A stretch of 64,000 nucleotides of DNA from Bryobacterales bacterium (GTDB lineage: Bacteria; Acidobacteriota; Terriglobia; Bryobacterales; Bryobacteraceae), in assembly GCA_003166865.1 (NCBI GenBank), contig PMUP01000030.1, forward strand, positions 33,361-97,360, written 5' to 3'. The notes under the pieces were generated by a model. The model saw nothing but the letters and a program-made list of their open reading frames with translations, was not told where the DNA came from and did no database searches. This document shows, one piece after another, positions 48,316-52,391 of this stretch (position 1 is the first letter of the stretch; the number at the start of each line of letters is the position of its first letter). Both the position numbers and the translations under genes were made by a program.

Positions 48316-48323
48316 CTGTTAAG
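48316..48323. repeat. target-site duplication, left copy (CTGTTAAG)
   Basis: Eight bases directly before the left terminal repeat, identical to 52384-52391. Eight-base duplications are characteristic of IS1595-family transposition. Confidence 0.93.
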
Positions 48324-48348
48324 GGTAACAATATAGTTGACAACTCAC
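48324..48348. repeat. left terminal inverted repeat
   Basis: GGTAACAATATAGTTGACAACTCAC in two halves; it matches the reverse complement of 52359-52383 except at position 7 (A versus C). It also contains AT-rich sequence that may be part of the transposase promoter. Confidence 0.93.
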
Positions 48349-48371
48349 CGGTTTTGAGTTAAGATTTAAGC

Positions 48372-49346
48372 ATGGAACCGAACACTCTTCAGGAAGTAAT
48401 CCTCTTCTTCGATAGCCCTGACAATTGCCGAGAGTACTTGGTAAAGCATCGCTGGCCCAATGGCGTTGTCTGCCCGCGTTGCGGCGGAACAAAGGTTCTA
48501 TTTCAACCGAAGTACAACCGCTGGCAGTGTGGTAGCAAGCACGCGCTGAGACAGTTCACCGCGAAGACTGGCACGATCTTTGAAGATAGCCCACTGGGTC
48601 TCGACAAATGGTTGCTGGCCATGTGGCAGGTTGTGAACTGCAAAAACGGCGTGAGTTCCTATGAGATCGCGCGCGCTACTGGCGTAACACAGAAGACTGC
48701 TTGGTTCATGGATCATCGCATTCGTGTTGCGCTCGGCATGGCGACGCCTGATAAGTTTTCGGGCCATGTCGAGGCAGATGAGACATTCATCGGCGGCAAG
48801 GCTCGGAACATGCATGTAGCGCAACGCCGCCGCCGCATAACGGGCACGGGCGGGAGAGACAAAACCGCCGTCATGGGAATTCTGGAACGCGGCAAAGATG
48901 GAACCAGCAAAGTCCGGACTAGCGTAGTAGAAAATCGCAAAAAGAAAACTCTTCAGGCTGAGGTGCACAAGCATGTAGAGGCTGGTTCGGCTCTTTACAC
49001 CGACTTCCTTCTCTCATATGAAGGATTGGAAGGCCGGTACGCGCATCAGGTGGTCGATCACGCCGTACAGTACGTGGATGGCAACGTTCACACGAACGGT
49101 TTGGAAAATTTCTGGTCTTTACTGAAGCGTGGCCTTAGCGGAACCTACGTGAGCGTGGAACCGTTCCACTTGTTCCGATACCTCGATGAGCAGTCGTTCC
49201 GATTCAATAATCGCAAGATGACCGATGGTGAGCGTTTCAGCGTGGCCGTTTCTGGAGTTGTCGGTAAACGCCTCACGTTCGATCAACTGACCGGCAAGAT
49301 TACTCCTGGGTCGAATTTGGAATCGACTTCCCCTGCTCCGATTTAG
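48372..49346 (+). CDS. IS1595-family (ISXO2-like) transposase
   Basis: The 324-residue protein has an N-terminal zinc ribbon (CPRCGG and the later WQCGSKH), a helical segment WLLAMWQVVNCKNGVSSYEIARATGVTQKTAWFMDHRI that binds DNA ends, and the DDE-type catalytic domain with GHVEADETFIGGKARNM, SALYTDFLLSYEGL and HTNGLENFWSLLKRGLSGTY. This is a full-length, uninterrupted member of the family and lies just inside the left inverted repeat. Confidence 0.95.
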   Translation: MEPNTLQEVILFFDSPDNCREYLVKHRWPNGVVCPRCGGTKVLFQPKYNRWQCGSKHALRQFTAKTGTIFEDSPLGLDKWLLAMWQVVNCKNGVSSYEIARATGVTQKTAWFMDHRIRVALGMATPDKFSGHVEADETFIGGKARNMHVAQRRRRITGTGGRDKTAVMGILERGKDGTSKVRTSVVENRKKKTLQAEVHKHVEAGSALYTDFLLSYEGLEGRYAHQVVDHAVQYVDGNVHTNGLENFWSLLKRGLSGTYVSVEPFHLFRYLDEQSFRFNNRKMTDGERFSVAVSGVVGKRLTFDQLTGKITPGSNLESTSPAPI

Positions 49347-49437
49347 GCGACAGCGGCGTGGCAAACGCAGCTGCGCCGGAAGTTGACCCAAGACGTGAGA
49401 TGATAACCTACTTGAACGGGAGGATAGGCGGACCAAC

Positions 49438-50133
49438 ATGGCAAATGTTTCGATCCCAGAGCGATACCAAGTCGGAGTGTCCAGAATTACCAAGCTCGAC
49501 ATCGAGACCGTTCGTGCGATAAGAGCAGCTTTGGATGCGGTCGTGTACCACGACCGTCCGCCTAAGGCTAGTTCGGTTATTGTCACCGCAATAGGATCTG
49601 TTTCTCCCCCGGAAATCACGGAAGAGGATTACAGGAAGATATCTGAAGCGCTCACGTCGATGTACGTGGTGCAGTCCGGACAGGACATGTCTTCAGATGA
49701 GTTTACTGAGGGGGTGGCGAATGCCTTGGAGGCGCTCCCCGATCCCGACTTGCGGTTGGAGCCCAGCGAACGCGAAACATTCAAGGAAAAGCTTTCTGTC
49801 CTCTTAGGTGCCGAAATGTTCGCCATGCTCTCGAAAGTGGGCGATCTACGTGCAGAGAGTGAGCATGTTTTTTGTCACGCTCGTATTTTGACGGACGTGC
49901 GCCCGGTGTTTGGGGCGCAAATCGAGAAAGGTCCCGTCGCGGCGCTGATCATGCACAATCTGAAAATAGCGTTTCATCTTTCTGGCAGGAGAGGCGATCA
50001 CGATTTTTATGTACTCCTGGATGGTGATGATCTATCGGAGCTGAAAGAAGTCATAATCCGAGCAGAAGCAAAGGCCAAGACTCTAAGGGGCATGGTTAAG
50101 AGTGATGTTAGGTTGATTGGAGAATCGACGTAA
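49438..50133 (+). CDS. transposon cargo: conserved unknown, first gene of a three-gene operon
   Basis: The 231-residue soluble protein (GGGAGGA upstream) has an N-terminal half with SRITKLDIETVRAIRAALDA and a C-terminal half with ESEHVFCHARILTDVRPVFGAQIE, ALIMHNLKIAFHLSG and DFYVLLDGDDLSELKEVIIRAEAKAKTLRG. The latter resembles an uncharacterised family with a short beta-strand/helix pattern ending in RAxxKAxxLR. The stop overlaps the next start (TAATG). No function is known; context suggests a module with the next two genes. Confidence 0.7.
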   Translation: MANVSIPERYQVGVSRITKLDIETVRAIRAALDAVVYHDRPPKASSVIVTAIGSVSPPEITEEDYRKISEALTSMYVVQSGQDMSSDEFTEGVANALEALPDPDLRLEPSERETFKEKLSVLLGAEMFAMLSKVGDLRAESEHVFCHARILTDVRPVFGAQIEKGPVAALIMHNLKIAFHLSGRRGDHDFYVLLDGDDLSELKEVIIRAEAKAKTLRGMVKSDVRLIGEST

Positions 50134-50615
50134 TGGATATTGATGCAGACTTCTGTTCTGGAGTCACGCATGTCAGCCAAAGCGAATGGATAGGTGGTGC
50201 AATTCACCGAGGCACCATTGAGCGAGTACACCACTGGCTGGGAAGGACAAAGGGAGAATCCTATCGGGCGATCGCAGAAATGTGGGCACATGCGGACGCG
50301 GGCGCTGTCACACATGCCCCGCAGGAATTACCCGGAGAGCGATTCGCACGGCTCGCGAATAAATGGTCTTCCGACACCGACCATATTTCTTCGGTAACGG
50401 ACTTGATCAACGATTCTAGCTATCAGCAGATAATTGATATGGGAATGGACGTTGTTCCGCATCTTTTGAACGATCTTGATCGCAATAAAAGATTTTGGTT
50501 CCCCGCTCTTGCCGCTATTACCGGATTGCGTCCGTTCGATCCCAAGGATATGGGAAACTATCGTTTAATGACCGAGGCATGGCTTCGCTGGGGCCGGCTG
50601 AAAGGGTTGATTTAG
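50133..50615 (+). CDS. transposon cargo: conserved unknown, second gene of the operon
   Basis: The 160-residue protein carries a well-conserved-looking C-terminal region: ANKWSSDTDHISSVTDLINDSSYQQIIDMGMDVVPHLLNDL, FWFPALAAITGLRP and GNYRLMTEAWLRWGRLKGL. I have seen this HxSSV..YQxIIxMG..AxPxxLxxL..WFxALxxITG..W..WGR pattern in unnamed proteins often adjacent to DUF7689-like genes. The helices and Trp-rich end suggest a protein-binding role; unproven. Confidence 0.7.
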   Translation: MDIDADFCSGVTHVSQSEWIGGAIHRGTIERVHHWLGRTKGESYRAIAEMWAHADAGAVTHAPQELPGERFARLANKWSSDTDHISSVTDLINDSSYQQIIDMGMDVVPHLLNDLDRNKRFWFPALAAITGLRPFDPKDMGNYRLMTEAWLRWGRLKGLI

Positions 50616-50643
50616 TCTGTCAGGTCTTCCACATCTTGAGCGC

Positions 50644-51204
50644 ATGTTCGACAAACTCTCCGTTGCTGGGTACGAAAAAACCAGTGAGCGGACCGACTAC
50701 CCGCCAACCCCTGGCGCATACAATTGCATAGCGTGGGCCGCTAACGATACCCATCATTTTCTTTGGCCACAGGCTGATTCTGACTGGCCTTTCTGGAGTC
50801 CGCGTATCGTAACTCGCGCCGCATTTATCCGCGCGTTTCGTGGATTTGGATATCAGACATGCGATAGCTCGCGCCCCGAGCTTTGGTTCGACAAAGTTGC
50901 TTTGTACGAACTTAACCAGGAGCCTAAACATATGGCTCGACTACGACGAGACGGAGCTTGGACGAGCAAATGCGGCGGGGCAGAAGACATTAAGCATTTT
51001 ACATTGGACGCGCTGGAGTCCTATGGCGGTCGCGTGCTGACCCCGCAGGGAGCATTGAGAAAAGCCGAGTACGGGTGTCCAGAGATGTACATGAAGCGGT
51101 TTATTCCACTTGGTTGGGTTGTACGAGCACTTCAGTGGATCACGTGGAAGCTGGAGACCGCCTTCCCATACGTCGGCTTTTGGATCTGGAAACGTCGCCA
51201 GTGA
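50644..51204 (+). CDS. transposon cargo: DUF7689-like protein, third gene of the operon
   Basis: The 186-residue protein has NCIAWAANDTHHFLWPQ (Cys and His that could form a catalytic pair), AAFIRAFRGFGYQTCDSSR, VALYELNQEPKHMARLRRDGAWTSKCG and EDIKHFTLDALES. The order Cys-Trp..His..Asp/His recalls papain-like folds, and the family is known only as a domain of unknown function. It ends at a CGCCAGTG/CACTGGCG hairpin. A conserved Cys/His arrangement makes an enzyme plausible. Confidence 0.68.
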   Translation: MFDKLSVAGYEKTSERTDYPPTPGAYNCIAWAANDTHHFLWPQADSDWPFWSPRIVTRAAFIRAFRGFGYQTCDSSRPELWFDKVALYELNQEPKHMARLRRDGAWTSKCGGAEDIKHFTLDALESYGGRVLTPQGALRKAEYGCPEMYMKRFIPLGWVVRALQWITWKLETAFPYVGFWIWKRRQ

Positions 51205-51219
51205 GACAAAACACTGGCG
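51196..51219 (+). terminator. hairpin at the end of the cargo operon
   Basis: CGCCAGTG-AGACAAAA-CACTGGCG is a perfect 8-bp stem overlapping the stop codon of the third cargo gene. No T-run follows (GTTATGATG), so it is a weak terminator or an RNA-stabilising end. Confidence 0.4.
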
Positions 51220-51235
51220 TTATGATGTCTGTAGG

Positions 51236-51400
51236 ATGAGCAAACCACAACCAGCACCGCAGGTACCGGGCAACACAGACGCCGAACGAATGAGCAACGC
51301 TCTCAGTATGGTGCTTACCGTGTCCAAAAAGGATCTGCTGACGAAGGAAGCGCGGCTGAAACGCGCCGGCGAAAAGAAGCGGGCGAAGAAGACTTCCTGA
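51236..51400 (+). CDS. transposon cargo: 54-residue basic protein
   Basis: Starts at an ATG preceded by TGTAGGATG; the product reads ERMSNALSMVLTVSKKDLLTKEARLKRAGEKKRAKK, like very small proteins found beside mobile-element genes. It has a helical middle and a lysine/arginine-rich tail. It lies between the end of the cargo operon and the convergent membrane-protein gene. Confidence 0.5.
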   Translation: MSKPQPAPQVPGNTDAERMSNALSMVLTVSKKDLLTKEARLKRAGEKKRAKKTS

Positions 51401-51411
51401 CCTGTGGTCAT

Positions 51412-51828
51412 TCAGGCGTGGTCCGCTGTATTGTCGTCATCCCTCCCGCGATTCGGGAAGAGGTACTTCGCAACGATGTATAAAATCCCGAGGACGTTTG
51501 CTGTGGTTGACCCAATCATAGCCAGCACAATGCTGTCCGACAATTTGAATGGTGCTCCCCAAAACGAGTAGCCAAACCCCTGAAGCATAATTATCGCTAC
51601 GATCGCGACTAGCCAAGCGCAAGAAAGATAGAAGAAAAGCCGCGCGTACTTCTTCCGCTCTTTGATGTCCTGCTTCTGACCCTCTGTCTGCGCCCCATAC
51701 CTTACCTTTTCGAGATCCGCCTTTTCCCTTAGAGTGTTTGGGTCTGGCTCGTTGCTTACCGTCTCACTCGCTGCCTCCGCTAGGCCACGGGCCAATTTGT
51801 CCTGCGGCGGTAGTTCGGGAGCACTCAT
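51412..51828 (-). CDS. transposon cargo: two-helix membrane protein, candidate toxin
   Basis: The 138-residue protein has a soluble N-terminal half (ASETVSNEPDPNTLREKADLEK, GQKQDIKERKKYARL) and two membrane helices, FFYLSCAWLVAIVAIIMLQGFG and SIVLAMIGSTTANVLGILYIVAKYLFP. Its ATG overlaps the stop of the Panacea-domain gene (ATGA). Small membrane-active toxins are among those neutralised by Panacea antitoxins, which makes this the likely toxin of the pair. Confidence 0.7.
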   Translation of the reverse strand: MSAPELPPQDKLARGLAEAASETVSNEPDPNTLREKADLEKVRYGAQTEGQKQDIKERKKYARLFFYLSCAWLVAIVAIIMLQGFGYSFWGAPFKLSDSIVLAMIGSTTANVLGILYIVAKYLFPNRGRDDDNTADHA

Positions 51829-52307
51829 CTTGGTAGGGCAGAGAAGTATCTCTTTATCAAATCATCGTCAATGAAAGGCTGGTTATTTTTCCGCGCTGTG
51901 CTCCACGGAGAGTCGGGAGCGTGCGTCATATTGGAAAGCTGAATTGCCGTGAAGTGCTTATAGGCTTCCCAAACCCTGCCCAGTAGATCCGTAACCTTTG
52001 GATCTTGGTACTTTGGGATTCCAGGATGAGTTACCCGAATGGTGGTGCCTGCAATTTGGAACACTTTCGCCGGTTCCGTGATGGGCTGGTTGCCAAACTG
52101 CTTGAACGCATGATAGAGGTCGGAAATAACTGGACCATAGTCCCACGCCTCTATCCTCTGACTGATAAGCGGACGCTCGTATACTCCCAGCATCCACCCA
52201 TGTGCAAAATACACAAATTTCTGCATCGCCATGGGAGTGATGCGTATACTTTCAGCGTTCCCGAGTTCTAGAAAATAATTAGCAACCGCTCTGGCATCGT
52301 AGGTCAT
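51825..52307 (-). CDS. transposon cargo: Panacea (SocA-like, DUF4065) antitoxin
   Basis: The 160-residue protein has the Panacea fold: YDARAVANYFLELGNA, ITPMAMQKFVYFAHGWMLGVY, RIEAWDYGPVISDLYHAFKQFG, and a C-terminal HFTAIQLSNMTHAPDSPWSTARKNNQPFIDDDLIKRYF. Panacea-containing antitoxins neutralise a wide range of toxins (PanAT systems), normally encoded in the same operon. ATG 52307 fits homologous starts better than the GTG at 52328. Its location close to the right end of the transposon would stabilise inheritance of the element. Confidence 0.82.
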   Translation of the reverse strand: MTYDARAVANYFLELGNAESIRITPMAMQKFVYFAHGWMLGVYERPLISQRIEAWDYGPVISDLYHAFKQFGNQPITEPAKVFQIAGTTIRVTHPGIPKYQDPKVTDLLGRVWEAYKHFTAIQLSNMTHAPDSPWSTARKNNQPFIDDDLIKRYFSALPR

Positions 52308-52358
52308 GCTAGGGCTCGGCGTTGCCACGCGCCAAGTCTACCATGCAAGGTCGTTGCC

Positions 52359-52383
52359 GTGAGTTGTCAACTATATGGTTACC
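52359..52383. repeat. right terminal inverted repeat
   Basis: The reverse complement reads GGTAACCATATAGTTGACAACTCAC in two halves, differing from the left repeat only at position 7. The last base (52383) is followed directly by the target duplication. Confidence 0.93.
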
Positions 52384-52391
52384 CTGTTAAG
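52384..52391. repeat. target-site duplication, right copy (CTGTTAAG)
   Basis: Identical to 48316-48323. Removing the element and one copy rebuilds an uninterrupted spacer between the S9 peptidase and the deacetylase genes. Confidence 0.93.

Follow-up and report, generated by a model that had tools for sequence, protein, structure and literature searches.

A transposon-borne operon headed by a COMMD-like protein as a candidate three-gene toxin-antitoxin-like module

In the antiphage operon vapKSC, which gives about 2-log protection against phage, genes for a kinase, an antitoxin and a toxin follow one another in that order (EMBO J 2026, PMC13373217). The antitoxin VapS neutralises the toxin VapC, and the kinase encoded by the first gene triggers release; a phosphoserine at Ser48 of VapS is required for this, and a phosphomimetic residue at this position abolishes neutralisation (PMC13373217). 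A second family that bears on the present locus is known from eukaryotes, where COMMD1-10 of the Commander (CCC) complex form a hetero-decamer that acts in membrane recycling in human cells. A 2023 study detected no COMMD homologues in bacteria or archaea and placed the origin of COMMD on the eukaryotic stem (PMC10187114); structures of bacterial COMMD-like proteins were released in the PDB only in late 2025.

The window, the whole stretch of 64,000 nucleotides that was analysed, comes from a Bryobacterales genome (Acidobacteriota) and contains an IS1595-family transposon of 4,060 bp (positions 48324-52383), with 25-bp inverted repeats and an 8-bp target duplication read from the sequence (Table 1). 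Its transposase, inverted repeats and 8-bp duplication are all those of the IS1595 family. The element shares these features, and the carriage of cargo, with other IS1595 insertion sequences that have passenger genes, and differs from them by its particular cargo. The GC content is 52% in the transposon and 62% in the flanks. The source genome (6.67 Mb in 107 contigs) has a single copy of the cargo, and diverged IS1595 transposases are present elsewhere in it.

Table 1. Features of the IS1595-family transposon and its target site (positions in the window)
Feature	Position	Strand	Basis
Target-site duplication, left, 8 bp, CTGTTAAG	48316..48323		read from sequence
Left terminal inverted repeat GGTAACAATATAGTTGACAACTCAC	48324..48348	+	inverted-repeat search
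IS1595-family transposase	48372..49346	+	PF12762 E=6e-43; PF12760; NF033547 3e-53
Gene 1, COMMD-like: helical N-domain and COMM-type C-domain; putative sensor/release factor	49438..50133	+	PDB profile match, model, Foldseek
Gene 2, middle protein: variable N-part and conserved ~90-residue C-domain; putative antitoxin/adaptor	50133..50615	+	gene 3 adjacency; module junction within relatives' gene 2
Gene 3, DUF7689 protein, putative toxin; extra C-terminal helices	50644..51204	+	PF24738, conservation, model
54-aa ORF	51236..51400	+	54% identity over 46 aa to homologue in L022
138-aa protein with hydrophobic segments, partner of Panacea gene, start/stop overlapping	51412..51828	-	ORF list, domain search
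SocA/Panacea-domain antitoxin-like protein	51825..52328	-	PF13274 7e-21
Right terminal inverted repeat	52359..52383	-	inverted-repeat search
Target-site duplication, right, 8 bp, CTGTTAAG	52384..52391		read from sequence

The initial annotation had described three coupled genes as transposon cargo lying between a transposase and a toxin-antitoxin pair. Both the cargo status and the placement held up: the element could be delimited, with the transposase on one side of the genes and a minus-strand Panacea-domain and membrane-protein pair (51412-52328) on the other. This second toxin-antitoxin-like pair within the transposon has the Panacea domain in common with PanAT/SocA toxin-antitoxin pairs and is separate from the three-gene operon. 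Genes 2 and 3 also travel aboard two other IS1595-type elements with 8-bp duplications, one carrying a ~90-aa gene ahead of them as cargo (L086) and the other, with the duplication AAACTTTG, containing DUF7689 (L089). A homologue of the 54-aa ORF adjoins the triad in another genome (L022:9634-9771).

The three reading frames encode 231, 160 and 186 residues, as first reported, and are coupled as described, by an overlap of the gene 1 stop with the gene 2 start (TAATG) and a 28-base gap between genes 2 and 3; the ribosome site of gene 1 is of the GGGAGG type. A short overlapping operon, an inseparable pair and an exchangeable first gene are general traits of three-gene toxin-antitoxin systems, and all three are seen here. 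Genes 1-3 matched no PADLOC antiphage model at E<=1, and tblastn against plasmids, with these genes and with their relatives as queries, gave no match. Since the same gene order is found again in other phyla, the triad is more than a chance arrangement, and by its sequence relationships it is a real, modular operon.

Gene 1 had no family match in Pfam, NCBIfam or PADLOC. When a profile built from 16 relatives was compared with the PDB, it matched 9q6a with E=5e-38 over 216 positions; the target is the octameric "COMMD-like protein MBK5214510" (9q6a, 9q6c, 9q6d), which belongs to the same family by full-length profile match and fold, although it is only about 21% identical to gene 1 in structural alignment. 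The AlphaFold2 model of gene 1 (pLDDT 81.8) has seven helices within residues 8-142, then three strands and a last helix at 196-221, the three strands and helix behind a helical N-domain being the layout of a COMMD protein. Foldseek returned 18 PDB matches at E<=0.001, all of them COMMD chains, bacterial ones first and human Commander next, and the best 20 were COMMD chains throughout. Global TM-scores were low, at 0.3-0.5, which a different orientation of the two domains would lead one to expect; the isolated COMM domain of COMMD9 gave a TM-score of 0.75 by its own length. By profile and model, then, gene 1 is COMMD-like, and the earlier statement that none of the three genes is assigned no longer applies to it. 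The helical N-domain and COMM domain are common to gene 1 and the eukaryotic COMMD1-10, to which it has no Pfam-level sequence match. Viral contigs scanned with gene 1 gave no match. One locus (L124:1483-3054) has a COMMD-like N-part within a longer protein, followed by a 125-aa protein that is weakly retropepsin-like, below Pfam cut-offs.

We found gene 3 in eight genomes of the home-phylum sample, the source genome included. Gene 2 exceeded the same threshold in seven of these, and the eighth (G167) has a gene 2 with a broken frame adjoining a broken gene 3. A scan of 85,462 species genomes, for which a three-row gene 3 alignment worked and a six-row one was too diverse, yielded 80 DUF7689 loci in Acidobacteriota, Planctomycetota, Cyanobacteriota, Chloroflexota, Nitrospirota, Pseudomonadota, Actinomycetota and other phyla. 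Gene 2 lies directly upstream of gene 3 in 78 of them, the two exceptions being contig ends. With HMMs trained on the genome loci, the pair was also present in 19 of 19 loci of a viral collection, several on contigs with head and terminase genes; a tblastn search of phages left gene 3 unmatched. The suggestion that genes 2 and 3 belong to families that neighbour each other elsewhere is thus confirmed, and as judged from these loci the two are inseparable, being nearly always adjacent. Outside the transposon the pair recurs and gene 1 is found ahead of it in other phyla, and given this repeated co-occurrence the view of the three genes as a system is upheld.

Gene 3 had been called DUF7689-like, and it is a member of this family (PF24738, E=3.2e-26, 92.8 bits against a gathering score of 22.6). 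The NCIAWAAND and KHMAR motifs that were singled out for their Cys and His are present, and these residues, Cys28 and His96, do not vary among 65 homologues; nor do Tyr26, Asn27, Trp31, Pro42, Trp106, Lys109, Asp115, His118 and Gly144. In the gene 3 model (pLDDT 86.9), Cys28 stands at the start of a helix and His96 is part of a strand, an arrangement like that of papain-type enzymes. A fold search gave no PDB match at E<=0.001, NlpC/P60 entries recurring only at E about 0.3-1; DUF7689 matched no known toxin, and a PDB search returned nothing credible for it. The invariance is compatible with a catalytic role for Cys28 and His96; gene 3 might be an ordinary NlpC/P60 enzyme, and DUF7689 may hold a Cys/His/Asp/His metal site. 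Three loci have a frame-broken gene 3 beside an intact gene 2 and none the reverse, a direction that fits a toxin in numbers too few to weigh.

The C-domain of gene 2 matched no known antitoxin, and a PDB search gave nothing credible for it. This domain also forms the C-terminus of a Type I-like N6 DNA methylase (L089:2116-4758), inside the IS1595 element with DUF7689 mentioned above, and is fused to a sigma-70 region 2 protein on a viral-collection contig (L161:5115-5990).

The slot ahead of genes 2 and 3 is held by several families. Among the 80 genome loci it contains TIGR04255 in 21, a ~90-aa family in 8, a COMMD-like protein in 7 and a ~120-aa family in 4; a further two have COMMD-gene 2 fusions, about 33 have no recognised first gene, and five lie at edges. 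HMMs built from the genome loci assigned a first gene in 15 of the 19 viral-collection loci (TIGR04255 in 8, the ~90-aa family in 3, COMMD in 1 and the ~120-aa family in 3). With so many pairs lacking a recognised first gene, gene 1 is dispensable for the pair. The first-gene labels change repeatedly over the gene 3 tree, which is poorly resolved at 146 columns, so that the number of swaps counted on it is no more than indicative. The gene 2 C-domain carries a fused COMMD helical part in Laspinema and, as a separate case, in another cyanobacterium (L125). TIGR04255 occupies the same position as gene 1 but is unrelated to it in sequence. A PDB search found nothing credible for TIGR04255 or the ~90-aa family, and a search of a literature library found no paper on DUF7689, TIGR04255 or bacterial "COMMD-like" proteins.

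TIGR04255 has other companions as well. In five loci (L127, L128, L141, L142, L145) it is followed by a recurring pair, a helix-turn-helix protein and then one of ~270 aa bearing a VVTQTCDIVR-type motif, the latter without a Pfam match in the locus checked (L141). In two cyanobacterial loci (L143, L144) it is followed by proteins of ~178 and ~174 aa. An acidobacterial genome has, directly after TIGR04255, gene 2 and gene 3, a 970-aa protein that by eye is a P-loop ATPase (L025:7425-10337).

Three of the four first-gene families are also found in front of pairs whose last gene is a classical toxin (PIN/VapC, HEPN, ParE/RelE). COMMD heads X-HEPN pairs in four loci (L121, L122, L123, L126; HEPN, PF05168, 1.5e-5). 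TIGR04255 heads a HEPN-like pair homologous to the COMMD-led one (L139), a PIN pair (L130, 1.7e-11) and several unassigned pairs, and the ~90-aa family precedes a ParE/RelE pair (L189, 2.9e-9) and a HEPN-like pair below the Pfam cut-off (L190). One cyanobacterial genome (G411) contains two COMMD operons with different toxins. Because classical toxins recur in third position, DUF7689 is placed in the toxin slot.

A link to vapKSC comes from a cyanobacterial locus (L120) in which COMMD heads a VapS-VapC pair. Its third gene matches VapC of PDB 9Z7O (9z7o_C) with E=1.2e-43, and its second matches VapS of the same entry with E=3e-20. The position of Ser48, located by subtracting the 18-residue tag from the numbering of the 134-residue 9Z7O chain, is Ala in this COMMD-led VapS, an observation from one locus. 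A search of plasmids and viral contigs for further COMMD-VapSC loci turned up only a kinase-led one, on a Deinococcus plasmid; the Deinococcus VapS keeps Ser at this position. A locus with COMMD, gene 2 and DUF7689 (L057) has 71% DNA identity to L120 over 916 aligned bases. The shared stretch runs through gene 1 into gene 2, of which it takes in the first 68 or so codons, with no similarity beyond, a sharp junction that, like the Ser-to-Ala change, is known from L120 only. Since homology stops at this point, the DUF7689 pair appears to sit in place of VapS-VapC. The N-parts of the two middle proteins are 52% identical over 61 residues (E=2e-14) and their C-domains and toxins differ, which is most simply explained if the middle protein is fitted to the first protein by its N-part and to the toxin by its C-domain. 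For gene 2 of the window, no match of the N-part to L057 or L120 was detectable.

The window operon shares with VapKSC the order of (putative) sensor, antitoxin and toxin, and through L120 it has a COMMD-led relative with homologous VapS and VapC. We rejected membership of VapKSC itself on three features: the first gene is COMMD-like instead of a GHKL kinase, gene 2 has no match to STAS, the VapKSC antitoxin being a STAS protein with a conserved Ser/Thr, and gene 3 is DUF7689 instead of a PIN-domain VapC. Although outside VapKSC, the operon probably works like it, by analogy, and a defence function is plausible from the homology of the arrangement.

The surroundings of the loci were compared with a control. 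PADLOC families among 115 neighbouring ORFs included PglX, type I restriction, DrmMI, MzaA, RT, Cas1 and Fic, and such families were almost absent among 99 control ORFs. Hand counting gave about 9 defence genes near the loci against 1 in the control (p about 0.02), an enrichment that is only suggestive because the PADLOC output consists of families, not members, and the control came from other taxa. Of the support that the initial annotation had looked for, co-occurrence in diverse genomes was found, with defence genes nearby suggestively enriched at most.

We consider it reasonably probable that the operon is a three-gene toxin-antitoxin-like module, composed of a sensor or release factor (gene 1), an antitoxin (gene 2) and a DUF7689 toxin (gene 3). 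Comparison of sequences supplies the gene order, the COMMD identity of gene 1, the exchange of first genes and toxin pairs, and the homology to VapS-VapC in the COMMD-led relative; toxicity, neutralisation, the trigger and phage defence we infer. Gene 3 would act as the toxin, held inactive by the conserved C-terminal domain of gene 2. Gene 1 probably forms a ring, as COMMD proteins do through COMM-COMM dimers, and would bind the N-terminal part of gene 2 and release or stabilise the antitoxin on a signal, possibly phage infection or DNA damage. The IS1595 transposon carries the three genes beside its second toxin-antitoxin-like pair.

The features of the first-gene slot could also be caused by chaperones. 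In known toxin-antitoxin-chaperone modules, SecB-like proteins fold or protect the antitoxin, and gene 1, TIGR04255 and the small first proteins could likewise fold or protect gene 2 with no part in sensing. The first gene goes with the N-part of the middle gene and not with the toxin, the pair occurs without a recognised first gene, and the first proteins have no catalytic signature, all of which would suit chaperones. However, no similarity to SecB was found by sequence, and in the homologous vapKSC a release-triggering kinase comes first, which makes one case at least where a trigger is known to occupy this slot; we regard the chaperone explanation as unlikely.

Less likely still is a direct route in which gene 1 detects infection and switches on gene 3, with gene 2 serving as the adaptor between them rather than as an antitoxin and gene 3 being silent alone. 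The fusions of the gene 2 C-domain to a DNA N6-methylase and to sigma-70 region 2 would suit an adaptor, and nearby defence genes are somewhat commoner, but the parallel pairs occupying these slots are of the classical toxin-antitoxin kind, and the gene 3 breaks beside intact gene 2, few as they are, run against a silent effector. A metabolic or housekeeping trio that happens to travel with mobile elements seems very improbable. No activity is known for these proteins, and DUF7689 has no significant fold match, as such a trio would allow; against it stand the scattered distribution across many phyla, on transposons and on phage contigs, and the swapping with toxin pairs.

If the toxin-antitoxin-like reading is correct, a COMMD-like protein at the head of operons ending in VapC, HEPN or DUF7689 would give bacterial COMMD a first, directly testable role. 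DUF7689 would be a candidate toxin family and the gene 2 domain a candidate antitoxin domain, and the unexplained TIGR04255 family would gain a candidate role. L057 and L120 may illustrate, as a natural swap, the way in which toxin-antitoxin modules of three genes recombine. Related units with exchanged parts are found in many bacterial phyla and some phages. More speculatively, and with rather less confidence than for the module itself, bacterial COMMD-like proteins may be trigger subunits for interchangeable toxin-antitoxin pairs, with DUF7689 as a new toxin family, and the eukaryotic COMMD ring may have come from, or share ancestry with, such immune or stress modules.
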